From NCBI GenBank assembly GCA_022651245.1, contig JALCQM010000030.1, forward strand, positions 1 to 35,551: 35,551 nucleotides of DNA, given 5' to 3'. Position numbers and translations under genes: made by a program. Shown in pieces: positions 3,362 to 35,551 of the stretch. Within the stretch, counting starts at the first letter, position 1; the number at the start of each line of letters is the position of its first letter. Under the pieces are notes generated by a model, which made no database searches, had not been told where the DNA came from, and saw only the letters and a program-made list of their open reading frames with translations. This DNA comes from Lactobacillus sp. (GTDB lineage Bacteria > Bacillota > Bacilli > Lactobacillales > Lactobacillaceae).

Positions 3362-4081
3362 CTACTTATGTGCGTTACTCTTGGGATTATCTTGGCCATA
3401 ATAAGCATCTTCACCATGTTTTCGGTAATAATGTTTGTCTAGCAGGTATTGTGGTACGTGGCTGTCACGATGACTGAGAGTCAAGGCGTGATAGTCCATC
3501 TCCGCAACGACCTCCATGACCTTGGCGTTATAGACCGCCTTGGCTGGTGTGGGCCCCCAAGCGAACGGGCCATGTTGGGCGACGAGGACAGCAGGTACTG
3601 CATTGTGATCAATCTCTCGATCGGCAAAAGTCTTGATTATTGCTTGTCCGGTTTCTTCTTCGTAAGCAGTGTTGCTCTGCTCTTTGCTTAATGCTTCAGA
3701 CACAGGAATGTCACCATAAAACGTGTCTGCAGCTGTTGTGTTTAGGTTGGGGATATCCATTTCGGCTGAAGCAAATGCTACAGCCCATGGCGAATGAGTA
3801 TGTACAATTCCCCCGATATCGGGGAAGGCATTGTATAGCACAGTATGTGTTGGCGTATCGCTGGATGGATTAAGCGTACCCTCAACGACTTCCCCATTAA
3901 GGTTAACAACGACCATGTCCTCAGGTGTCAGCTGATTGTAGTCAACACCTGAAGGTTTGATGACAAATAAGCCTTGATCACGATCAATCCCGCTAACATT
4001 CCCCCAAGTGAATGTAACGAGGTCAAGCTTGGGCAGTTGCATATTAGCTTCGTAGACTTCGTGTTTCAGTGCTTCTAGCAT
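3362..4081 (-). CDS. araD: L-ribulose-5-phosphate 4-epimerase
   Basis: This enzyme converts L-ribulose-5-phosphate to D-xylulose-5-phosphate, the last dedicated step of L-arabinose catabolism. The 239-residue class II aldolase-fold protein shows the family blocks: TWGNVSGID, FVIKPSGVDY, SSDTPTH, the metal-binding IVHTHSPWA (HxH), and a third metal His in VAQHGPFAWG. Length is normal for AraD (about 230-240). The SD aggagg lies 9 nt before the ATG. It is transcribed away from the ABC transporter genes, from a promoter whose spacer carries an AraR-like operator. A fuculose or xylulose-phosphate aldolase is less likely given the araA, araB and araR genes nearby. Confidence 0.93.
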   Translation of the reverse strand: MLEALKHEVYEANMQLPKLDLVTFTWGNVSGIDRDQGLFVIKPSGVDYNQLTPEDMVVVNLNGEVVEGTLNPSSDTPTHTVLYNAFPDIGGIVHTHSPWAVAFASAEMDIPNLNTTAADTFYGDIPVSEALSKEQSNTAYEEETGQAIIKTFADREIDHNAVPAVLVAQHGPFAWGPTPAKAVYNAKVMEVVAEMDYHALTLSHRDSHVPQYLLDKHYYRKHGEDAYYGQDNPKSNAHK

Positions 4082-4453: not shown

Positions 4454-5717
4454 GTGGTTCAAGATAGTGGGACTTGTCGCGATTGTAGCATTGGGTCTCG
4501 TCGCGTGTGGTAATAAATCTTCGAGTGATAGTAAGAACACCAAAACGTTGACGGTTTGGACCTCGTACACAGAAGGTGCAGCTACAGGTAAAGAAATTAA
4601 GAAGACCATTAAAGAGTTTGAAAAAGAGACTGGATATAAAGTTAAGCAATCGAATTTCACCTATGACATGATGCACGACAAGATCAAAGCGTCTGCTGCA
4701 GGCGGAAATTTGCCTGATGTCATTTGGGGATTGCCGGAGTGGATTGGTGAATTTAACCAGATGGGGATTGCAGAAGATATCACTTCTGAGGTTAACGATT
4801 GGAGCCAAAAGGGTAAGATTTCCAAGGCTTCACTTAACGCGATGAAAATTAATGGCAAGTACGTAGGGATTCCATACGAATCTACAGTGCGGGCCTACTT
4901 AACACACGAAACGACCTTTCAAAAAGCGGGCGCTGCTGTCCCGACAACATGGGAAGATCTGCTGAGTATGAAAGATTTTAAGAGTAAGACTGGCATTTAT
5001 CCCTATTCTTTCGCAGGTAAGGGTGTTCGTGAACCACAAGAATTGTTAGTTTACTTAGCGCAGTATGGTCTTAACATTGCTACCGAGCAAAAAGGCGGTA
5101 AATTCAAAAATACTTGGAATAATAACCCCGCGCAGCTTGCAAAGGCAACTAAAGTATTTCAGTTCTATAAGGATTTAATTTCTGACGGAATTGTGGATAA
5201 AAACTCTGCAACGCTTGGTTGGGAAGATACAGACGAAAACTTTGCCACGGGGATCTCTGCTTCTTATGTGACAGGTAATTGGCTAGCAGAACGTGAAGCA
5301 ACGAATCCTAAGACGATGAAAGATGTCCAAGTTAATGCTATTCCCTATCCTACGGATGGAAAAGCGGCCACTTATTTGGAGGCAAAACCGTTATTTGTCT
5401 TAAAAAATGACACGGATAAAGCCGCTAAAGTTAAACTTGCTGAAGCTTTCTTGAGCAAGAAAGCACAGAAAGCGGCCTTCTTGGATCGTTCCCCGCGGAC
5501 TGATGTAACAGGCTCCTCGAAATGGAGTAAAGATTTTAAGAAACTCTCTGATACGGGGGTTACCTTCCCGCCTGTCACAGTTTCAAATATTCAACAAAAC
5601 ATGATCGATTCTTTGGCTAAGGTCTTGCAAGATGGTATGGCACCTAAAGATGCCGCTAAGTGGCTCTCCACGGAAGTTAATAAGTCACTTGCTGACAATA
5701 ATGAATTAGCAAAGTAG
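4446..5717 (+). CDS. Sugar ABC transporter substrate-binding lipoprotein
   Basis: This extracellular solute-binding protein (family 1, MalE/MsmE type) of 423 residues is anchored by a lipid. The signal peptide is MNKWFKIVGLVAIVALGLVAC with lipobox LVAC, so mature Cys is near residue 21, followed by a Ser/Lys-rich linker (GNKSSSDSKN). The mature domain begins LTVWTSYTEG and contains the LPDVIWGLPEW segment usual in oligosaccharide-binding proteins. It is first in an operon with two permeases and a GH36 glycosidase, between araD and araR, so an arabinose-containing or galactose-containing oligosaccharide is the likely cargo. Ligand specificity cannot be read from the sequence. Confidence 0.88.
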   Translation: MNKWFKIVGLVAIVALGLVACGNKSSSDSKNTKTLTVWTSYTEGAATGKEIKKTIKEFEKETGYKVKQSNFTYDMMHDKIKASAAGGNLPDVIWGLPEWIGEFNQMGIAEDITSEVNDWSQKGKISKASLNAMKINGKYVGIPYESTVRAYLTHETTFQKAGAAVPTTWEDLLSMKDFKSKTGIYPYSFAGKGVREPQELLVYLAQYGLNIATEQKGGKFKNTWNNNPAQLAKATKVFQFYKDLISDGIVDKNSATLGWEDTDENFATGISASYVTGNWLAEREATNPKTMKDVQVNAIPYPTDGKAATYLEAKPLFVLKNDTDKAAKVKLAEAFLSKKAQKAAFLDRSPRTDVTGSSKWSKDFKKLSDTGVTFPPVTVSNIQQNMIDSLAKVLQDGMAPKDAAKWLSTEVNKSLADNNELAK

Positions 5718-25920: not shown

Positions 25921-27090
25921 TTAGCCGGCTTTGCGGGTCAGCAGGCGCACGCGGTACACCGCGTTGATCTGGCGTAGTTGGTCGAGCAGGTCCGCTTGGG
26001 CTTGCAAGTTGTTGGTGTCGATGATCGAGTAGGCGACGTTGGCGCGCGCGGCGTTGCTCATCGATTCGATATTAATGTTGTTTTGCGCCAACAGCGTGGC
26101 GATTTGGCCGACCATGTTGGGGATGTTTTGGTGCATGACAGTCAGGCGGTAGTGGCTGATGAAGGGCACTTCTAGCGTGGGCAAGTTGACGCTGTGGACG
26201 ACGTTGCCGGTTTCCAAGAAGTTCATGATCGTCTCGGCGCCTTGGACCGCGCCGTTGGCTTCTGCTTGTTCGGTCGAGCCGCCGATGTGTGGGGTGACTA
26301 AAACGTCGCGGCGGTCGAGGATCTCGGGGTCGCCGAAGTCGGTCATATACCGCTTTACGTGGCCGGCGTCTAATGCGGCGCAAACGGCGTGGTTGTCCAC
26401 GATGCCGCCGCGCGCGAAGTTTAAGATCACCACGTCTGGTTGCATTTTGGCGATGGTGTCCGCGTTGATCATGTTGGTGGTTTCGGCGTTCTTCGGGACG
26501 TGGACGCTGACGTAATCGGCGTGGGCGATCGCGTCTTCTAAAGTCGCGGCGCGCACGGTCGTCGTGGGGATGTGCCAAGCGTCGTTGGCGCTGAGGTACG
26601 GGTCGTAGCCGATCACGTGCATCCCCAAGTCGCTAGCGGCGTGCGCCACCAGTGCGCCGACGTGGCCGACGCCGATGACAGCCAGGGTCTTGCCGGCGAG
26701 CTCGGTACCGTTGAACTGGGTCTTCTCCCGCTCGGTGCGCGTCGAGATATCCGCGCCGTTATTGGCGGCGGCATACTTGGCGGCGGAAAAAAGGTTGCGG
26801 CTGGCCGTGATCAGCATCGCGATCACCAGTTCCTTGACCGCGTTGGCGTTGGAGCCGGGGGTATTGAACACGGCGGTCCCGTTGGTGGTCGCGACGTCTA
26901 GCGGGATGTTGTTGAAGCCGGCGCCGCAGCGGACGATGGCTTTGAGTTGTTGGGGAAAATGATAGGGATGTAAATCGACGCTGCGGATCAACAACGCGTC
27001 GGCGTCGTCGGTTTGGTTGAGGGTGTAGTCGGGTTTGAAGCGGTCGAGGCCTTGTTGGGCGATGGCATTAAAGGTTTTGATTTGATACAT
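25921..27090 (-). CDS. serA: D-3-phosphoglycerate dehydrogenase
   Basis: This enzyme oxidises 3-phosphoglycerate to 3-phosphohydroxypyruvate with NAD+, the first step of serine synthesis. It has 389 residues: substrate domain halves around an NAD domain with GVGHVGALVAHAASDLGMHVIGYDPYL. The catalytic set is visible as Arg in ILNFARGGIVD, the Glu region (DFGDPEIL), and His in VTPHIGGSTEQAE. A C-terminal ACT domain from about residue 317 (RLTVMHQNIPNMVGQIATLLAQNNINIESMSN) suggests allosteric control, usually by serine. The SD aggagg precedes the ATG. It follows serC by 19 nt in the same operon. Confidence 0.95.
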   Translation of the reverse strand: MYQIKTFNAIAQQGLDRFKPDYTLNQTDDADALLIRSVDLHPYHFPQQLKAIVRCGAGFNNIPLDVATTNGTAVFNTPGSNANAVKELVIAMLITASRNLFSAAKYAAANNGADISTRTEREKTQFNGTELAGKTLAVIGVGHVGALVAHAASDLGMHVIGYDPYLSANDAWHIPTTTVRAATLEDAIAHADYVSVHVPKNAETTNMINADTIAKMQPDVVILNFARGGIVDNHAVCAALDAGHVKRYMTDFGDPEILDRRDVLVTPHIGGSTEQAEANGAVQGAETIMNFLETGNVVHSVNLPTLEVPFISHYRLTVMHQNIPNMVGQIATLLAQNNINIESMSNAARANVAYSIIDTNNLQAQADLLDQLRQINAVYRVRLLTRKAG

Positions 27091-27109
27091 AGCGAGTTCC
27101 TCCTGGGGG

Positions 27110-28183
27110 TTATAAGTGGGTTTCGAAGTCGTGCAAAAAGTCGATCAACGCGTCGACGCCGGCAAGCGGCATGGCGTTGTACAAGCTGGCGCGCAAGCCG
27201 CCGACGCTGCGGTGGCCCTTGAGGTTCATGAGCCCTTTCGTCGCTGCCTGGGCGACAACGGCTTGATCGAGCGCTTCAGAGCCGGTGTTGAACACCACGT
27301 TGGTCAAACTGCGGTCGGCTTTGGTGACTAAGTTGGCGAAGACTGGCGATTGATCTAAAAAGGCGTACAGTTTATTGGCCTTGATCCGGTTGCGGCGCTG
27401 CATTTCAGCGACCCCGCCTTGTTCTTCGACCCATTGCAAGACCAGGTTCAAGGCGTAAATCGCAAACACCGGTGGGGTGTTGTACAGCGATTTTTTCTGG
27501 TCGAAAAGGTGGTAGTCGAGCATGCTCGGAACGGGGGCGACGTCTTGTAGCAAGTCGCGGCGAACGATGACGACGGTCACCCCGGCCGGCCCGAGATTTT
27601 TCTGGGCGCCGGCAAAAATCAGGCCAAAATCGTTCACGTCATAGTGTTCGGCCAGAATGTTCGACGACATGTCGCCTACCAGCGGGGTGCCGGTGACAGG
27701 CGGTAGGTGGTGAAACGCGGTGCCTTCAACGGTATTATTGAGGCACAGGTGGAGGTAGTCGTAAGTATCGGCGGGCACGGCCGGCAGCTTGGGCAGGTGC
27801 CGGTAGTGGGTCGCCTTGGTCGTCGCCAAGACCTCGGCGGGAATCCCTAGGCGGGCCGCTTCGGCTGCTGCCCGGCTCGCCCACTGGCCGCTATCGAGAA
27901 CCGCGATGCGCCGGTGGTGCGTCGCCAAGTTCAGCGGGGCGGCGGCGAATTGACCGGTGCCGCCACCTTGCATGAACAACACGGCGTAGTGATCCGGGAT
28001 CGCCATCAACTGGCGCAGCCGCGTCTCGGCTTGGGTGATGATGACGCCAAACGCCGCCGCCCGGTGGGAGACTTCCATGATGCTCATGCCGCTACCGCCT
28101 AACGACGGCAGTTCGGCTTGAATCTGGGTGACGACAGGGGCGGGCATCATCGCGGGCCCGGCAGCAAAATTATAGACGACCAT
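27110..28183 (-). CDS. serC: Phosphoserine aminotransferase
   Basis: This PLP enzyme converts 3-phosphohydroxypyruvate plus glutamate to phosphoserine and 2-oxoglutarate. It has 357 residues. The ATG at 28183 after aaggagg starts the canonical YNFAAGPAMMP; eight upstream codons open in frame are not part of the gene. Visible features are MEVSHRAAAF, MQGGGTGQFAAAPLN, a DMSSNILAEHYDV stretch, and the PLP lysine in FGLIFAGAQKNLGPAGVTVVIV. The C-terminal KGHRSVGGLRASLYNAMPL is family-typical. It is the first gene after the serine leader attenuator. Confidence 0.95.
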   Translation of the reverse strand: MVVYNFAAGPAMMPAPVVTQIQAELPSLGGSGMSIMEVSHRAAAFGVIITQAETRLRQLMAIPDHYAVLFMQGGGTGQFAAAPLNLATHHRRIAVLDSGQWASRAAAEAARLGIPAEVLATTKATHYRHLPKLPAVPADTYDYLHLCLNNTVEGTAFHHLPPVTGTPLVGDMSSNILAEHYDVNDFGLIFAGAQKNLGPAGVTVVIVRRDLLQDVAPVPSMLDYHLFDQKKSLYNTPPVFAIYALNLVLQWVEEQGGVAEMQRRNRIKANKLYAFLDQSPVFANLVTKADRSLTNVVFNTGSEALDQAVVAQAATKGLMNLKGHRSVGGLRASLYNAMPLAGVDALIDFLHDFETHL

Positions 28184-28204
28184 AAGTTTCCTCCTTGTGA
28201 GTAA

Positions 28205-29244: not shown

Positions 29245-29273
29245 TTGACAAGACCAGAAACGGGCGGTATGCT
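29245..29273 (+). promoter_or_regulatory. aro operon promoter
   Basis: Consensus TTGACA (29245-29250), a 17-nt spacer and TATGCT (29268-29273) place the transcription start near 29280, about 20 nt before the leader peptide. Confidence 0.85.
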
Positions 29274-29299
29274 CATTGCAACATTTCAAAGGGGTTTTG

Positions 29300-29356
29300 A
29301 TGATGACGACAACAACAACGAAAGTTTATTATGCCTGGTATGCGTTTTATCGCTAG
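29300..29356 (+). CDS. Aromatic leader peptide of the tkt-aroFBDE operon
   Basis: This is an 18-codon ORF (or 17 from the second ATG at 29303, which has the better spacing to aaagggg at 29288-29294). The peptide MMTTTTTKVYYAWYAFYR carries four Tyr (all TAT), one Trp and one Phe within its last ten residues, then TAG. It precedes hairpins and terminators in the leader of a shikimate-pathway operon. Enrichment for exactly the pathway's end-product codons argues for ribosome-mediated attenuation sensing mainly tRNA-Tyr. The run of five Thr codons rich in A and C may keep the initiation region unstructured. Confidence 0.85.
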   Translation: MMTTTTTKVYYAWYAFYR

Positions 29357-29474
29357 CACGTAGGTTCACGCGAATGTGATCCTGCGAGATAGGGATCACA
29401 TTCGTCTGCATACCGGATCATCGAATCACACGGTCAGCACTCGGATGAACACAATTCAGCCGGGTGCTTTTTTC
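29335..29474 (+). promoter_or_regulatory. Attenuator of the aro operon: alternative pairings and terminator T1
   Basis: Three elements are seen. (a) Leader-peptide codons CTGGTATGC (29335-29343) pair with GCATACCGG (29408-29416) over 9 bp, enclosing a 12-bp hairpin (29371-29382 with 29393-29404). (b) The same segment 29408-29416 can instead pair with the T1 3' arm CCGGGTGC (29460-29467), eight pairs with one bulged A. (c) Terminator T1: AGCACTCGG (29436-29444) with CCGGGTGCT (29460-29468), then T6. A ribosome stalled on Tyr/Trp codons would cover 29335-29343, free 29408-29416 and so break T1. Confidence 0.75.
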
Positions 29475-29500
29475 TAACTTCATCAGGATCTTCTGGTGAG

Positions 29501-29536
29501 AAAAAACGCCATCGGCTGAAGTCGATGGCGTTTTTT
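29501..29536 (+). terminator. Second leader terminator T2 before transketolase
   Basis: A perfect 14-bp stem (29501-29514 with 29523-29536, AAAAAACGCCATCG type) ends in T6 and lies 33 nt before the transketolase start. Being in tandem with T1, it must also be passed for operon expression. A small CATCAG/CTGGTG hairpin (29481-29498) lies between them. Confidence 0.88.
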
Positions 29537-29569
29537 CGTGGCTGGCGGGACCTGACTAGGAGGAAAATT

Positions 29570-31561
29570 ATGTTTGATACGATCGACGAACAAGCCGTGA
29601 CGGCGGTAAGAATGTTAAGTGTGGCGCAGATTCAAGCGGCCAATTCCGGACACCCAGGGTTGCCGTTAGGGGCAGCACCGATGGCTTACGTCTTATACCG
29701 TAACCACTTGAATGTCACCCCTAACGCCAGCCACTGGTTCAACCGTGACCGGTTCATCTTATCTGCGGGCCATGGCTCCGCGATGCTCTACGCGCTCCAA
29801 CACCTGGCCGGGTTTGACGTGAGCCAAGACGACTTGCGGCATTTTCGCCAGTTTGGTAGCCGCACCCCGGGGCATCCAGAATACGGCTTGGTCGATGGCG
29901 TCGAAGCGACGACCGGACCGCTGGGCCAAGGCTTAGGGATGGCCGTGGGGATGGCGATGGCCGAACGCCACTTGGCCGCGCGTTTTCCTGGTTTAGTCGA
30001 TCATTTCACCTTCGTGCTGGCCGGGGATGGCGACTTGATGGAAGGCATCTCGCATGAAGCGATGGGGCTCGCCGGCCATCAAAACCTTGGCAAGTTGATC
30101 GTGTTGTACGATTCCAACGATGTGTCGCTGGATGGCAACAAGAGCCGCGCTTTCGGTGGCGACGTCGCCGCGCGCTGTGCCGGTGCCGGTTGGGATTACA
30201 GCCAAGTCGGCGATGGCAACGATCTGCAAGCCATCGATGCCGCCTTGACCGCGGCCAAGCAAGTGACCGATCGACCTTCGCTGATCGAAGTGCGCACGAT
30301 CCTCGGGTTCGGGGCGGCGGGGCAAGGCACCAACGCCGTGCACGGCAAGCCGTTGTCGGAAGCGGCCTTTGCCGACTTGAAGCAGACCTTCGAGTGGGAC
30401 CTGCCAGATTTTGCAGTGCCAGCCGCGGTGCGCGAGCGCTTTGTTGCGACCTTGCAGGCGCGCGGTGACGCGGCCCAGCAGGCGTGGCAAGAACAGTTGG
30501 CGCAATTGACGCCGGCCGCTTCGGCGGCGTTTGCCCGCACAGTTGGCGGCTTACAACCCCGCCTGCCAAAATTACCGGCCGATTTGTTGCCGGAAAAAGT
30601 CTCCGGGCGCGATGCCGGCCAACTGGTGATGAACGCCTTTGCCCAACAGCTCCCTGATTTATGGGGCGGGGCGGCAGACCTTGCCAGCTCGACCAAAACG
30701 GTGATCGACAACTCGCCGCTGTTCAACCAAGCCCATCCTGAAGGCCGCAACGTCGCCTTTGGGGTCCGGGAGTTTGCGATGGGGGCGGCCTTGAACGGGA
30801 TGGCCTTACACGGCGGCTCACGGGTCTTCGGCAGTACTTTCTTGGTGTTCTCCGATTACCTCAAGCCGGCGATCCGCTTGGCTGCGATGCAACATTTGCC
30901 TGTGACCTTCGTCTTCACGCATGATTCGATCGCGGTCGGCGAAGACGGGCCGACGCACGAGCCGATCGAGCAGTTGATGATGTTGCGGACGATCCCGAAC
31001 ACGGTCGTCTTGCGCCCGGCCGATGGTCCGGAAGTCGCCGCGGCTTGGCGGGTGGCCTTGACCCGGACGAACGGGCCGACCGTACTGGTGTTGTCGCGGC
31101 AAGACTTGCCGCAGCTGTCGGTGCAAGTGCCAGATGTGGAACGCGGCGCGTACATCGTTCGCGGGGTGCCACAAGGCAAGCGCCAAGACGGCATTTTGCT
31201 GGCCAGCGGCTCAGAAGTCCATGTGGCCATGCAGGCGCAACAAGAGCTGGCCAAAAGCGGCCGCTTCGTCAGCGTCGTTTCAGTCGCCAGTTTTGAACTT
31301 TTTGCCCAGCAAGCCGCAGCTTACCGGCAAATGGTGTTACCGAGTGACGTGACGCGGCGCTTGGCGATCGAAATGGGCAGCCCGCTCGGTTGGGAACGGT
31401 TTGTCGGCTTGGACGGGGCTGTGCTGGGGATGGAGACCTTCGGCGCCAGTGGCACCCCAGACCGGGTCTTGGCCCACTTCGGCTTCACCCCGCAAAACGT
31501 CGCCGACCGCTACTTAGCACTAGACTCTGCCGCGGTTTTACGCACCATGGCACACCGCTAA
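29570..31561 (+). CDS. tkt: Transketolase
   Basis: This thiamine-diphosphate enzyme exchanges two-carbon units and can make erythrose-4-phosphate from fructose-6-phosphate and glyceraldehyde-3-phosphate. It has 663 residues, full length. The start ATG 29570 after taggagg excludes an open extension that would overlap terminator T2. Motifs are ANSGHPGLPLGAAPMAYVLY, FILSAGHGSAMLYALQHL, the ThDP/Mg motif GDGDLMEGISHEAMGLAGHQNLGKLIVLYDSN, and the pyrimidine-domain VFTHDSIAVGEDGPTHEPIEQL. It lies directly upstream of DAHP synthase in the same operon, so its job is probably to supply erythrose-4-phosphate to the shikimate pathway rather than general pentose metabolism. Confidence 0.95.
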   Translation: MFDTIDEQAVTAVRMLSVAQIQAANSGHPGLPLGAAPMAYVLYRNHLNVTPNASHWFNRDRFILSAGHGSAMLYALQHLAGFDVSQDDLRHFRQFGSRTPGHPEYGLVDGVEATTGPLGQGLGMAVGMAMAERHLAARFPGLVDHFTFVLAGDGDLMEGISHEAMGLAGHQNLGKLIVLYDSNDVSLDGNKSRAFGGDVAARCAGAGWDYSQVGDGNDLQAIDAALTAAKQVTDRPSLIEVRTILGFGAAGQGTNAVHGKPLSEAAFADLKQTFEWDLPDFAVPAAVRERFVATLQARGDAAQQAWQEQLAQLTPAASAAFARTVGGLQPRLPKLPADLLPEKVSGRDAGQLVMNAFAQQLPDLWGGAADLASSTKTVIDNSPLFNQAHPEGRNVAFGVREFAMGAALNGMALHGGSRVFGSTFLVFSDYLKPAIRLAAMQHLPVTFVFTHDSIAVGEDGPTHEPIEQLMMLRTIPNTVVLRPADGPEVAAAWRVALTRTNGPTVLVLSRQDLPQLSVQVPDVERGAYIVRGVPQGKRQDGILLASGSEVHVAMQAQQELAKSGRFVSVVSVASFELFAQQAAAYRQMVLPSDVTRRLAIEMGSPLGWERFVGLDGAVLGMETFGASGTPDRVLAHFGFTPQNVADRYLALDSAAVLRTMAHR

Positions 31562-31579: not shown

Positions 31580-32563
31580 ATGATCATTCAATTCAAACAA
31601 GCAACCCCACTCATTCAAAGCATCAAGGCCCGTTTAGAACAAACCCCGGCCCAAGTCGAAGTCGTCGGCACGCACCTGGCAGCGATCGGGGTCAAAGAAT
31701 TCACCCCGACGCCCGAAGAAGCGGCGGTGATCGCCTCGATCACCACGGACGACCCGAGCTTCGTGTTGGGTAGCCGTCAGTTCCAGCCGGAAGACACCGT
31801 GATCACCTTGCCGCACACAACCATCGGCGGGGGCCACTTCGTGATGATGGCGGGCCCGTGTTCCGTTGAATCCGAAGCCCATGTGCGTAAAATGGCCCAA
31901 GTCGCCAAAGCCGGTGGCGCAACCGTTTTGCGAGGCGGCGCGTTCAAGCCACGGACGGTGCCGTACTCCTTCCAAGGCTTAGAAGAAGACGGCTTGCGCT
32001 TCTTGCGAGAAGCGGCCGACGAATTCGACATGGACGTGATCACCGAAGTCATGGACGTGCCGCACGTCGACATGGTGGGGCGCTACACCGATATTTTCCA
32101 GATTGGGGCGCGCAACATGCAGAACTTCTCCTTGCTCAAAGCGGTCGGCAAGACGCAAATCGCTGTGGGGTTGAAGCGCGGCATGTCGGCGACGATCGAT
32201 GACTTGTTGAACGCGGCCGAGTACATTCGCGCCAACGGCAACCCTAACGTGTTCTTGATCGAACGCGGGATCCGGACCTTCGATAGTAAGTATACGCGCA
32301 ACACCTTCGACTTGGCGGCCATCCCCGTGTTGAAAAAGTTGTCCCACTACCCGATCATTGCGGACCCGAGCCATGCGGTCGGCGTGCGCGATTTAGTCAC
32401 CCCGATGGCCGTAGCTGCCGCCGCTGCTGGGGCAGATGGCGAAATCGTCGAGATCCATGATGACCCGGCCCATGCTTTTTCCGATGGGCCCCAGGCGTTG
32501 ACGCCTGACTTGTACCGCGACATGACGCAACGGGTGTCGGCTGTACGGGCGGCGTTGGCATGA
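31580..32563 (+). CDS. aroF: 3-deoxy-7-phosphoheptulonate (DAHP) synthase, type I-beta
   Basis: This enzyme condenses phosphoenolpyruvate with erythrose-4-phosphate, the first step of the shikimate pathway. It has 327 residues: an N-terminal regulatory domain of about 60 residues (MIIQFKQATPLIQSIKARLE...), then a barrel with VMMAGPCSVESEAHV, LRGGAFKPRTVPYSFQGL, VGLKRGMSATIDDLL, and ADPSHAVGVRDLV containing a metal-binding His. The N-terminal extension is typical of I-beta enzymes feedback-inhibited by Tyr or Phe, which would add enzyme-level control to the leader-level control. SD aaaaggag precedes the ATG. It overlaps aroB by 4 nt. Confidence 0.95.
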   Translation: MIIQFKQATPLIQSIKARLEQTPAQVEVVGTHLAAIGVKEFTPTPEEAAVIASITTDDPSFVLGSRQFQPEDTVITLPHTTIGGGHFVMMAGPCSVESEAHVRKMAQVAKAGGATVLRGGAFKPRTVPYSFQGLEEDGLRFLREAADEFDMDVITEVMDVPHVDMVGRYTDIFQIGARNMQNFSLLKAVGKTQIAVGLKRGMSATIDDLLNAAEYIRANGNPNVFLIERGIRTFDSKYTRNTFDLAAIPVLKKLSHYPIIADPSHAVGVRDLVTPMAVAAAAAGADGEIVEIHDDPAHAFSDGPQALTPDLYRDMTQRVSAVRAALA

Positions 32564-33624
32564 AGACGCTGACGGTCGCTTTACCCGCGCACCCTTATGA
32601 GATCCGCATCGAAGAAGGCGCGGCGGCGCGCTTAGGCGCGTTGATCGCAGCCGTTTGGTCGGCGCGCAAAGTGTTGATCGTGTCGGATAGCCACGTGGCG
32701 CCGTTGTACCTGGCGGCGACGCAGGCCCAGCTGGAAGCGGCCGGCTTCACCACGGCGACCAGCGTGATCCCAGCAGGCGAAGCGTCCAAAACGCTAGCCG
32801 GGGCGCAACGCGTGTACGCGGATCTCGTCGCCAACGGCTTTTCCCGCAGTGACGGGGTAGTGGCGCTTGGCGGCGGTGTGGTCGGCGATCTGGCCGGCTT
32901 CGTGGCGTCGACGTTCATGCGCGGCCTGAGTTACATTCAAGTGCCGACGAGCCTGTTGGCCCAAGTCGATTCAAGCGTTGGCGGGAAGACGGCCTTGGAT
33001 TTTGGTGCCGGCAAGAATGTGATCGGGACGTTTTTCCAGCCTGATCTGGTCGTCATTGACCCGCTGCAGCTCAAGACGCTGAGCCAGCGCAACCTCGTCG
33101 AAGGCTATGGTGAAGTGGTGAAAATGGCGGCGATGTCTAGCGACCCGAGTTTTTGGAAGCTGCTAGAGACGATCGATTCGCCGGCGGCACTGTTGGCCCA
33201 TGCCGGGGCCTGCAGCGAATACGCGATCGCGGCTAAGGCGGCTTTGGTGGTGGCCGACGAGCGGGATACCGGCGCGCGCCGCCTGTTGAATTTTGGCCAC
33301 ACCTTAGGCCACGCGGCGGAATTGTTGGTGCCGGATACCTTGCACGGTGAAGCCGTCAGCATGGGGATGATGGCGATCACGCGGTTGTGTGAGCGCCACG
33401 GCCTGACCGCCGCCGGCACCGCAGACCAGATTGCGGGCCGCTTGCAGGCGGTCGGCTTGCCGACCAACTTCCCGGCGCTCACGGTGCCCCAACTGGTTGA
33501 CCAGATCCGCTTGGACAAAAAGGTCAAGGCGGACAAGGTGGTGCTCGTGACGCTAGCCCAGTTAGGCGAACCGCGCTTGCACCCGGTGCCGTTAGCCGCA
33601 TTACCGGAATTTTTGGAGGGGTAA
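32560..33624 (+). CDS. aroB: 3-dehydroquinate synthase
   Basis: This NAD- and metal-dependent enzyme turns DAHP into 3-dehydroquinate. It has 354 residues with DGVVALGGGVVGDLAGFVASTFMRGLSYIQVPTSLLAQVDSSVGGKTALDFGAGKNVIG, a diagnostic block, followed by EGYGEVVKMA, the metal ligands in LNFGHTLGHAAE and LHGEAVSMGMM, and RLDKKVKADKV. The start overlaps the aroF stop (ATGA), so the two are translationally coupled. Confidence 0.96.
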   Translation: MKTLTVALPAHPYEIRIEEGAAARLGALIAAVWSARKVLIVSDSHVAPLYLAATQAQLEAAGFTTATSVIPAGEASKTLAGAQRVYADLVANGFSRSDGVVALGGGVVGDLAGFVASTFMRGLSYIQVPTSLLAQVDSSVGGKTALDFGAGKNVIGTFFQPDLVVIDPLQLKTLSQRNLVEGYGEVVKMAAMSSDPSFWKLLETIDSPAALLAHAGACSEYAIAAKAALVVADERDTGARRLLNFGHTLGHAAELLVPDTLHGEAVSMGMMAITRLCERHGLTAAGTADQIAGRLQAVGLPTNFPALTVPQLVDQIRLDKKVKADKVVLVTLAQLGEPRLHPVPLAALPEFLEG

Positions 33625-33625
33625 C

Positions 33626-34348
33626 ATGACGTTTGTCCAAGTTTTGAGTGGTCGCCAACCCGCGATCGCCGTGCCGATAACGGCAACCACGGCAGCGGCG
33701 CTAGAGGCGCAAGTGGCCGCGGTGTGCGTCAGTCCGGCCGCCATCGCGGAATGGCGCCTCGACGCTTGGCCCACCGTCTCCACCGCATTAGCCAAGCAAG
33801 TCGTTGACCGGTTACATGCCGCGGGCAAGCTGCTGTTAGTGACCTGCCGGACCCAGGCGGAAGGCGGCGCGTTTGCCGGCGATTCTTCTGCGTATGTCGC
33901 CTTGTCCCAGCGCCTGTTAGCGCTAGGACCGGATGCGCTCGACGTTGAAGCCCGCTTTGCCGCGCCGACGATAACGGCGTTAGTCGCGCTGGCACACGCC
34001 GCCGGGGCCGCGGTGGTGGGGAGCCACCATGATTTTTCCGCGACGCCGGCATTGGCGACGGGGCAGGCGCTGTTAAGCGCGCAGGCGACTTGGGCGGATG
34101 TGGTCAAGTTGGCCGCGATGCCGCAAGTGCCGGCAGACACGTTGACCTTGTTGACGCTCAGTGCCTGGGCCAAAACGACGCTGGCGTGCCCGGCGATCGT
34201 GATCGGGATGGGCGCGCTAGGCCAACTGACACGGGTGGCGTCCGGGGCCTTCGCGCCGGCGTTGACCTTCGCCAGTTTAGGGCAGTCGTCTGCGCCAGGC
34301 CAGCTGAGCGTGCAGGCAATCGTCGGGATTCAGGGGGCAAGCGTATGA
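33626..34348 (+). CDS. aroD: 3-dehydroquinate dehydratase, type I
   Basis: This enzyme dehydrates 3-dehydroquinate to 3-dehydroshikimate through a Schiff base. It has 240 residues. Visible features are EWRLDAW (substrate Arg/Glu region), LLVTCRTQAEGG, DVEARFA, the general-base His in VVGSHHDFSATP, and the Schiff-base Lys in DVVKLAAMPQ, then IVIGMGALGQLTRV and a C-terminal SAPGQLSVQ. The start follows aroB by 1 nt after ggagggg. Size and motifs are those of class I (AroD), not class II (AroQ). Confidence 0.94.
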   Translation: MTFVQVLSGRQPAIAVPITATTAAALEAQVAAVCVSPAAIAEWRLDAWPTVSTALAKQVVDRLHAAGKLLLVTCRTQAEGGAFAGDSSAYVALSQRLLALGPDALDVEARFAAPTITALVALAHAAGAAVVGSHHDFSATPALATGQALLSAQATWADVVKLAAMPQVPADTLTLLTLSAWAKTTLACPAIVIGMGALGQLTRVASGAFAPALTFASLGQSSAPGQLSVQAIVGIQGASV

Positions 34349-35211
34349 TCGATGCTCAAACCAAGCTGTTTGGCTTACTCGCGCATCCTAGCGGGCACTC
34401 GCTGTCGCCAGCGATGCATAACCATGCCTTCGCGCAATTGGGCCTCAACGCGCGCTATTTGGCATTTGACGTTTTGCCGGAAAATTTGGCGGCTGCTGTG
34501 GCCGGGTTGCGCGCGCTCAACATCGGTGGGGTCAATTTGTCGATGCCGCTAAAAGAAGCCGTCTTGCCGCTGCTAGATGAACTCGATCCTCTGGCGCGCT
34601 TAGCTGGCTCGGTCAATACGATCGTCAACCGCAATGGCCGCTTGTGTGGGTATACCACCGACGGGCTAGGCGTGGTCCAGGCCTTGCCTGCGCGCCTGGA
34701 TTTGGCCACTAGCCGGGTCGTGCTGTTTGGGGCTGGCGGGGCCGCGCGTTCGACGGCCTTAGCCTTGGGCCAGAAAGGCGTGGCCGAGTTGGTCGTGATC
34801 AACCGGCACCGCGCCGCCGCAGAAGCCTTGGCTGCACACGTCCACGCCGCCACCGGCTGTTCAGTGGTGGTCGAAGAGCCGACCGCGCACCAAGCGGTCA
34901 CGGCCCTGGTGCAAGCCAGCCAACTCGTAATCAACGCGACTAGCCTGGGCATGGGTGCCCAAGCGGCGCTCAGCCCGTTGGCGGATGACCAGGCGTTGCG
35001 ACCAGAGCAGGTGGTGTTGGATATGGTTTACGCGCCTTTACAGACGCGCTTTTTGCACCAAGCTGCGGCCGCCGGGGTGCAGACGAGGCTGAACGGCTTA
35101 GCCTTATTGGTGGCGCAAGGCGCGGCGGCCTTCAAGCTGTGGACGGGGCAATCGATGCCAACGGCCGCCGTGACCGCCCACTTGACCCAGTTATTGACTG
35201 AAAACGCCTAA
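34345..35211 (+). CDS. aroE: Shikimate dehydrogenase
   Basis: This NADPH enzyme reduces 3-dehydroshikimate to shikimate. It has 288 residues: substrate-site SGHSLSPAMHN, VNLSMPLKEAVLPLLDELD with the catalytic Lys, GSVNTIVNRNGRLCGYTTDGLGV, the nucleotide motif LFGAGGAARSTALALGQKG, INRHR (phosphate-binding side), and LVINATSLGM. The usual NP in VTMP/NPHK-type motif reads SMPLK here. The ATG at 34345 overlaps the aroD stop (ATGA); the frame is open further upstream inside aroD but that is a shadow. It is the last gene of the operon in this window, followed by a terminator. Confidence 0.94.
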   Translation: MIDAQTKLFGLLAHPSGHSLSPAMHNHAFAQLGLNARYLAFDVLPENLAAAVAGLRALNIGGVNLSMPLKEAVLPLLDELDPLARLAGSVNTIVNRNGRLCGYTTDGLGVVQALPARLDLATSRVVLFGAGGAARSTALALGQKGVAELVVINRHRAAAEALAAHVHAATGCSVVVEEPTAHQAVTALVQASQLVINATSLGMGAQAALSPLADDQALRPEQVVLDMVYAPLQTRFLHQAAAAGVQTRLNGLALLVAQGAAAFKLWTGQSMPTAAVTAHLTQLLTENA

Positions 35212-35305: not shown

Positions 35306-35551
35306 TTAATGCAGCACAAAGACCCCCAGCGCCTGAACGCTGCGAGCCTTTGAGGCTTCAGTTGTAAGTACCGCGGCGCCAAATCGTCGCGGGTGGTGCC
35401 CACAGGCACGGGGACAACGGACAGTGGCCGGGCCAAGCCGTGAGCAAAGAGGGACCGAGAGGCAACTGGTCCGGACTGCGACATTAGCATAGAGGCTTTA
35501 TAGGGGCGTGTGCATTGACGCTAGCCGGTATCGTGCGTATCGGGATGCTCT
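35306..35551 (+). ncRNA. Hairpin-rich untranslated leader or RNA, cut by window end
   Basis: About 245 nt lie downstream of the promoter without a credible gene and with several compact stems: GCAGC 35311-35315/GCTGC 35338-35342; AGCCT 35344-35348/AGGCT 35352-35356; CCGCGGCG/CGTCGCGG (about 35371-35392, 8 bp with one G-U); GTGCC/GGCAC (about 35396-35409); GGACC/GGTCC (about 35453-35472). No terminator is seen before the end, so it may be a riboswitch-like leader of a following gene or a separate RNA. Confidence 0.4.

Follow-up and report, generated by a model that had tools for sequence, protein, structure and literature searches.

A predicted six-segment, two-terminator leader-peptide attenuator ahead of the tkt-aroFBDE operon of a Lactobacillus, and its relatives in Lactobacillales

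In enterobacteria, attenuation by a leader peptide is the textbook device; its counterpart in Firmicutes is usually the T-box. The attenuator of the enterobacterial his operon is laid out as a scheme of segments lettered A through F. In this system the leader peptide contains codons for the product of the operon, and the first hairpin is separated from the terminator by an extra hairpin, which lowers basal readthrough (PMC1183508, available text). In Firmicutes, regular leader peptides were called a new finding in 2010 (PMC2965389). The His attenuators of this phylum have a classical leader peptide, terminator, and antiterminator and precede hisS/hisZ or his operons of bacilli, Eubacteriales, and Erysipelotrichales; the his genes of Lactobacillales are reported to use T-boxes (available text of PMC2965389 and PMC9413887). 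At the time of PMC3766115 (available text), the attenuators in Rfam covered only His, Leu, Thr, and Trp. For aromatic genes, attenuators before the aro/tyrA clusters of Enterococcus faecalis and Lactobacillus plantarum were predicted from a terminator/antiterminator website (PMC1173090, Table 7); the available part of that paper names no leader peptide, relay, or sensing mechanism for these tyrA supraoperon attenuators. A 195-nt putative sRNA of E. faecium, which gives two transcripts on Northern blots, is filed in Rfam as an sRNA gene (RF02863, 'Enterococcus sRNA 2410'), and the accessible text of PMC5593968 names neither a leader peptide nor an attenuator for it. The available portions of PMC2494555 and PMC8632094 contain nothing on the aromatic leaders described here, and no description of such a leader was found in the open full-text literature, a scope outside which most subscription papers lie.

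The window analyzed here is the whole stretch of 35,551 nucleotides that makes up contig JALCQM010000030.1 of a Lactobacillus sp. Judged by its sequence, attenuation of aromatic genes by a leader peptide is very likely in this window (Table 1); the switch is of a known kind, and its variant, place, and extent are new. The original prediction of ribosome-mediated attenuation by an aromatic leader peptide before tkt-aroF-aroB-aroD-aroE is supported, with the genes identified by Pfam. The segments of the leader RNA are numbered 1 to 6 in order, such that 3:4 is terminator T1 and 5:6 is terminator T2. The leader ahead of tkt-aroFBDE is real: its promoter-like site, ORF, 1:2 pairing, and T1 are confirmed. 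The peptide, of 17-18 codons depending on the ATG used (29300 or 29303), has the YYAWYAFYR ending that had been reported, its C-terminal end being V-Y-Y-A-W-Y-A-F-Y-R, and that of a close relative (L004) is identical. The hallmarks of an attenuator lie together in the window, namely a short ORF with a ribosome binding site and a run of codons for the products, followed by a terminator before the first gene; moreover, the codons lie in segment 1, the strand that competes with the antiterminator 2:3. When both strands of the window were scanned, the combination of mini-ORF, RBS, aromatic cluster, and T2-like terminator occurred only at this leader. Of 200 dinucleotide shuffles, 199 fold less well than the leader RNA (29275-29475; z -2.97). 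An Rfam scan of the window gave no family at gathering score; a psRNA14 match in the leader (29.6 bits, where the cut-off is 60) and four still weaker matches were rejected as below cut-off. T2 ends only 32 nt before the tkt ATG (29570), leaving no room for another promoter, and expression therefore requires readthrough of T2. The operon is visible only as far as position 35551, where the contig stops after aroE. Upstream, on the opposite (-) strand, phosphoglycerate dehydrogenase-like and phosphoserine transaminase (serC) genes occupy 25921-28204.

Table 1. Features of the leader and operon in the window, and further aromatic leaders in the same genome
Feature	Position	Strand	Details
Promoter-like site TTGACA-17-TATGCT	29245..29273	+	10/12 consensus matches; consensus match only
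-35-like TTGACA	29245-29250		17-nt spacer to -10-like element
-10-like TATGCT	29268-29273		
RBS-like AGGGG of leader ORF	29290-29294	+	
Leader peptide ORF, MMTTTTTKVYYAWYAFYR then stop	29300..29356	+	ATG 29300 or 29303; TAG 29354-29356
Segment 1	29334..29345	+	Codons Ala12-Phe16 of leader; partner is segment 2
Apical hairpin within 1:2 domain	29370..29405	+	14 pairs, 8-nt loop
Segment 2	29398..29416	+	Partner 1 (terminated) or 3 (antiterminated)
Segment 3	29430..29448	+	T1 5' arm plus upstream extension; partner of 2
Terminator T1 (3:4)	29436..29474	+	Hairpin 29436-29468, then U run
Segment 4	29454..29467	+	T1 3' arm; partner 3 or 5
Terminator T2 (5:6)	29500..29537	+	17 bp, -27.3 kcal/mol, A- and U-tracts
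Segment 5	29506..29521	+	T2 5' arm and loop; partner 4 or 6
tkt, transketolase	29570..31561	+	RBS AGGAGG 29558-29563; Pfam
aroF, DAHP synthase	31580..32563	+	Pfam
aroB, 3-dehydroquinate synthase	32560..33624	+	Pfam
aroD, type I 3-dehydroquinase	33626..34348	+	Pfam
aroE, shikimate dehydrogenase	34375..35211	+	Pfam; first matched residue to stop
Three tandem TrpX-like genes (L366, L365, L362)	C7:14892-18544		Each with aromatic leader and two terminators
Leader ARRFFSWYFG before aminotransferase (L370)	C17		About 280-223 nt before tblastn match; one terminator

With good confidence, we take the best explanation of this arrangement to be a ribosome-mediated attenuator of the his type, modeled as six alternately complementary segments with two terminators. 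The five successive complementarities of such a relay (1:2, 2:3, 3:4, 4:5, and 5:6) are all present, and they, like the ORF, the two terminators, and the recurrence of these elements in relatives, are established by sequence and statistics. When Tyr, Trp, and Phe are sufficient, the ribosome would complete the leader and depart, allowing 1:2 to form; 3:4 (T1) and then 5:6 (T2) would follow, and transcription would end before tkt. A ribosome stalled at the aromatic codons would cover segment 1, and segment 2, once freed, would pair with segment 3. With 2:3 formed, segment 4 would be free to pair with segment 5 before segment 6 is made, and polymerase would pass both T1 and T2. What we infer from this arrangement is that the ribosome stalls, that the pairings form in this kinetic order, and that the switch responds to the supply of amino acids.

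Within the window, 1:2 has an energy of -16.0 kcal/mol, and 2 of 60 shuffles are as good. The 9-bp pairing first proposed for it (29335-29343, CTGGTATGC, with 29408-29416, GCATACCGG; one G-U, -12.8 kcal/mol) exists and covaries in relatives. The energy of 2:3 (29398-29416 with 29430-29448) is -17.8 kcal/mol, as good in 3 of 60 shuffles, and that of 4:5 (29454-29467 with 29506-29521) is -18.3 kcal/mol, as good in 1 of 100. The window's own clade comprises four sequences. Across the four leaders that are closest to one another here (those of the window, L004, L143, and L144), the T2 stem varies with compensation, from C-G to U-A; CGGCUGA of the T2 arm, part of which sits in the T2 loop, and UUCAGCC of segment 4 are invariant.

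Of 397 Lactobacillaceae genomes, 160 carry genes resembling aroF, and 120 regions upstream of such genes (933,951 bases) were sampled. A lax script gave candidates in 91 of these loci, which were curated to 87 leaders in 86 loci; together with the window and L004, the final set contains 89 leaders from 17 Lactobacillaceae genera. An automatic scan of the same 120 loci under stricter rules yielded 91 sense candidates versus 1 antisense; a T2-like terminator accompanied 86 of the sense candidates, all in curated loci, and 0 antisense. No curated leader was obtained at 34 of the 120 loci, some of which are cut by contig ends (e.g., L145, L182), others belonging to genera in which none was seen (e.g., g31, and g35 except for weak model matches). 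The peptide MNAFYYWH at a Weissella locus (L037) was rejected because it overlaps the terminator of the upstream gene. One locus (L146, aroF on the + strand) has two aromatic leaders about 1.2 kb apart, at 3403-3454 and 4571-4622, and no T2 was called for the first (L146a). At another (L160), a TPP riboswitch scores above the gathering score at 1989-2080.

The leader of the window had been thought to sense mainly tRNA-Tyr. Tyr is indeed the commonest residue of all within the last 12 residues of the 89 leaders (255 of 1068 residues, a mean of 2.9 per leader), but this view is only partly right, given 133 Phe (mean 1.5) and 88 Trp (mean 1.0), with Trp in this stretch in 86 of the 89. Any of the Tyr, Trp, or Phe codons could stall a ribosome on segment 1. 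This predicted sensing of Tyr, Trp, and Phe sets the leader apart from the his attenuator, which belongs to another phylum and which it resembles in design. A second difference is that in the window, and in 52 of the 89 leaders, a T tail follows the extra hairpin itself.

T2 is the more constant terminator, since a T2-like terminator is found in 88 of the 89 leaders versus a script-called, T-tailed T1 in 52. These counts bear on another reading, in which the relay to T2 is correct but 3:4 is a relay and pausing hairpin like the extra hairpin of his and not a true terminator. Such a role would suit the 37 leaders in which the script called no T-tailed T1, as well as the effect of the his hairpin on basal readthrough (PMC1183508, available text); against it, six U directly follow the 3:4 hairpin in the window, and the Enterococcus homologue gives two transcripts, which the available text of PMC5593968 reports without band sizes. 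We regard a 3:4 that does not itself terminate as possible, though somewhat doubtful.

The constancy of T2 also weighs against a simpler switch, in which T1 is the sole regulated terminator, segment 2 pairs with either 1 or 4, and T2 is constitutive or leaky. Much the same had been proposed originally as a 'complete and simple' attenuator, a description that overlooked segment 3 and the second, stronger terminator T2 (29500-29537). Both of the pairings invoked are present in the window: alongside 1:2, segment 2 can pair with segment 4 (29408-29416 with 29460-29467, CCGGGTGC; 8 pairs, one bulge, -9.5 kcal/mol). However, the antiterminator role assigned to 2:4 is not supported, because 2:3 is far stronger (-17.8 kcal/mol) and because 2:4 would occupy segment 4, which has to be free if T2 is to be opened, so that T2 would be left standing before tkt and would still block it. 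In addition, 4:5 recurs in relatives, and T-tailed T1 is the less frequent of the two terminators. The simpler switch is therefore unlikely.

Evidence for the relay through 2:3 and 4:5 comes from pairing tests on 88 leaders (L146a, which has no T2, was omitted). The mean energy of 1:2 is -17.3 kcal/mol, versus -10.8 for shuffled and -13.2 for other-genus sequence; that of 2:3 is -17.1, versus -10.1 and -13.4; and that of 4:5 is -18.4, versus -11.7 for shuffled sequence and -13.4 for other-genus upstream regions, all of these being optimized values, since the segment finder chose the best duplexes, with shuffles handled alike only for the chosen windows. Leader by leader, at most 3 of 60 shuffles match 1:2 in 62 of 88 and 2:3 in 74 of 88, and at most 5 of 100 match 4:5 in 69 of 88; in the 19 others 4:5 does not surpass the best 5% of shuffles. 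The leader's own sequence beats 90% of other-genus partners for 1:2 in only 39, for 2:3 in only 27, and for 4:5 in only 48 of the 88. In 87 of 88 leaders the segment that pairs best with the T2 arm begins between +78 and +114 past the leader stop; the exception (L146b) has a misassigned T2.

Covariation was examined in two MAFFT alignments, A1 and A2 (the latter with 31 leaders from 7 genera), with structure taken from one row of each. In A2, the set 1:2+3:4+5:6 is 83.8% paired and has 192 double-changed cells versus 78.9 when shuffled (0/500), and the set 2:3+4:5 is 74.6% paired and has 76 versus 37.8 (0/500), where cells count sequences and not events; as double-changed pairs, the latter set has 19 versus 15.3 (9/500). 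In A1, 1:2+3:4+5:6 is 81.5% paired with 44 double-changed cells versus 23.0 (0/500), but with only 12 double-changed pairs versus 11.3 (223/500), and 2:3+4:5 is 82.3% paired and conserved, without covariation beyond shuffles (11 versus 11.4; 314/500). When partners were slid by 1-3 columns, pairing fell to 30-49% in all four counts. In sum, covariation is seen for 1:2, 3:4, and 5:6 in both alignments, and for 2:3 and 4:5 in A2 but not in A1. Two 1:2 pairs in A2 swap U-A for C-G at third positions of Tyr codons (16/13 rows and 14/16 rows), changes that are synonymous yet compensated, although they track genus groups and may represent one or two events.

Equilibrium folding supports the full switch only partly. 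When leaders were folded just past segment 3, 1:2 exceeded 2:3 in 86 of 88 unstalled leaders; with the leader masked, as by a stalled ribosome, 2:3 reached at least 5 bp in 64 of 88, and 57 of 88 showed both behaviors. In controls with segment 3 shuffled, the corresponding counts were 167 of 440 for stalled 2:3 and 129 of 440 for both, an enrichment of about twofold. When folding is carried on through segment 5, the complete switch is seen at equilibrium in just 13 of 88 leaders. The window is not among them because 4:5 already exceeds 3:4 when unstalled (6.9 versus 4.7 expected pairs). When the window was folded to 29522, masking of 29300-29345 gave 2:3 plus 4:5, versus 1:2 plus 3:4 without the mask. 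Along the masked series 2:3 is present at 29449 and 29460, T1 is back from 29468 to 29500, and 2:3 plus 4:5 appear at 29522. Once segment 6 is made, T2 forms in the masked and the unmasked window alike (probability 0.99-1.0). Since T2 wins at equilibrium as soon as segment 6 exists, antitermination would have to be kinetic, which is how transcription attenuators are held to work.

A covariance model built from 67 leaders matches 126 of the 397 Lactobacillaceae genomes at E 0.01 or better. It gives 0 matches in the genome of the window, where it misses the leader described above, and its counts are thus lower bounds. Of 40 matches away from aroF that were examined (at least 11 weaker ones lie outside this set), 38 have an aromatic leader. 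Aminotransferases follow 27 of these leaders and TrpX-like substrate-binding proteins follow 5, with 2 EIIC-like membrane proteins, 1 chorismate synthase, and 1 MFS-like protein behind others; these gene calls rely on resemblance, except at L325 (NCBIfam aminotransferase) and at L341, L337, and L329 (Pfam), L337 reaching 324 bits with NCBIfam TrpX, where the cut-off is 390. One leader (L350) runs off its contig, and two matches (L340 and L360) were judged false. A match at L326 (G215:C7) was set aside as a leader remnant, NRFYYYWFIQ, in which the hairpin region is shortened. No aro gene lies near it downstream, where the earliest long ORF, 1.5 kb on, resembles galE.

Four further leaders of this kind are present in the genome of the window (Table 1). 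Those of the tandem TrpX-like genes on C7 (YYGGYYG, AYYYGYYG, and FFTGFFG) are Tyr-only, Tyr-only, and Phe-only, respectively, and such codons provide predictions of transporter specificity. In the C7 and C17 leaders, 1:2 and 2:3 are matched by at most 8 of 100 shuffles, 2:3 having been computed for C7 only. The best partner of the T2 arm is the T1 3' arm in C7b and C7c (5 and 10 of 100 shuffles as good), but segment 2 in C7a. A search of this genome, an assembly about 90% complete in which aro genes are present, gave no match to prephenate dehydratase (PF00800).

The same device is apparently carried by relatives across the order, part of it being catalogued only as a small RNA. Of 395 genomes of the order, 26 match the covariance model with an E value no higher than 0.001, and 14 of these 26 belong to two other families. 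The leaders of these 14 (L386-L399) end in YYFSYFR (13) or FYFSYYRACL (1), and the genes behind them are, by sequence, aroE-like in 8 cases and DAHP synthase-like in 6, with Pfam support for one of each (L386 and L387). The pairings are found here as well. For 1:2, no more than 2 of 60 shuffles are as good in any of the 12 leaders examined, and for 2:3 the same limit holds in 11 of 12; for 4:5, no more than 5 of 60 are as good in 12 of 13. T1 or T2 was misassigned in the misses, L393 and L394, and L399 lies outside these counts. RF02863 scores above the gathering score in 13 of the 14, and has no match in the window or in the Lactobacillaceae loci scanned. With this overlap, RF02863 may be a misfiled attenuator. 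Two terminators would produce two RNAs, the number reported from the Northern blots of the RF02863 RNA, and the relay would then account for a published RNA that had no known role. That these leaders are instead stand-alone small RNAs, in keeping with the listing of the Enterococcus homologue as an sRNA (PMC5593968, available text), is quite improbable, because an aroE or a DAHP synthase gene comes directly after them at all 14 of 14 loci, and because they contain the aromatic ORF and keep the alternative pairings; the two readings could, however, both hold.

We consider it probable that Lactobacillales possess an order-wide aromatic regulon, controlled by six-segment, two-terminator leaders that exist beside T-boxes and govern shikimate operons, aromatic-type aminotransferases, and uptake genes, in which the leader codons predict the amino acid handled and the bands of sRNA 2410 are the products of both terminators. 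One design for one group of amino acids recurs in 17 Lactobacillaceae genera and two further families. The idea that a T-box or some other tRNA- or metabolite-binding riboswitch controls the operon, with the peptide incidental, can be dismissed as highly improbable: the genome of the window has 29 T-box matches, but none is on its contig, no Rfam family reaches gathering score in the window, and aromatic codon runs recur in the 89 curated leaders. T-boxes (RF00230) also sense amino acid supply in this genome, but they bind uncharged tRNA directly, and no RF00230 match is found at the tkt-aro operon. The only Chorismate_bind (trpE-like) gene of the genome (C36:7570) is positioned downstream of a T-box match (C36:6638-6881) that scores below the cut-off of Rfam, and the reason for which a lineage maintains both sensing systems becomes directly testable.
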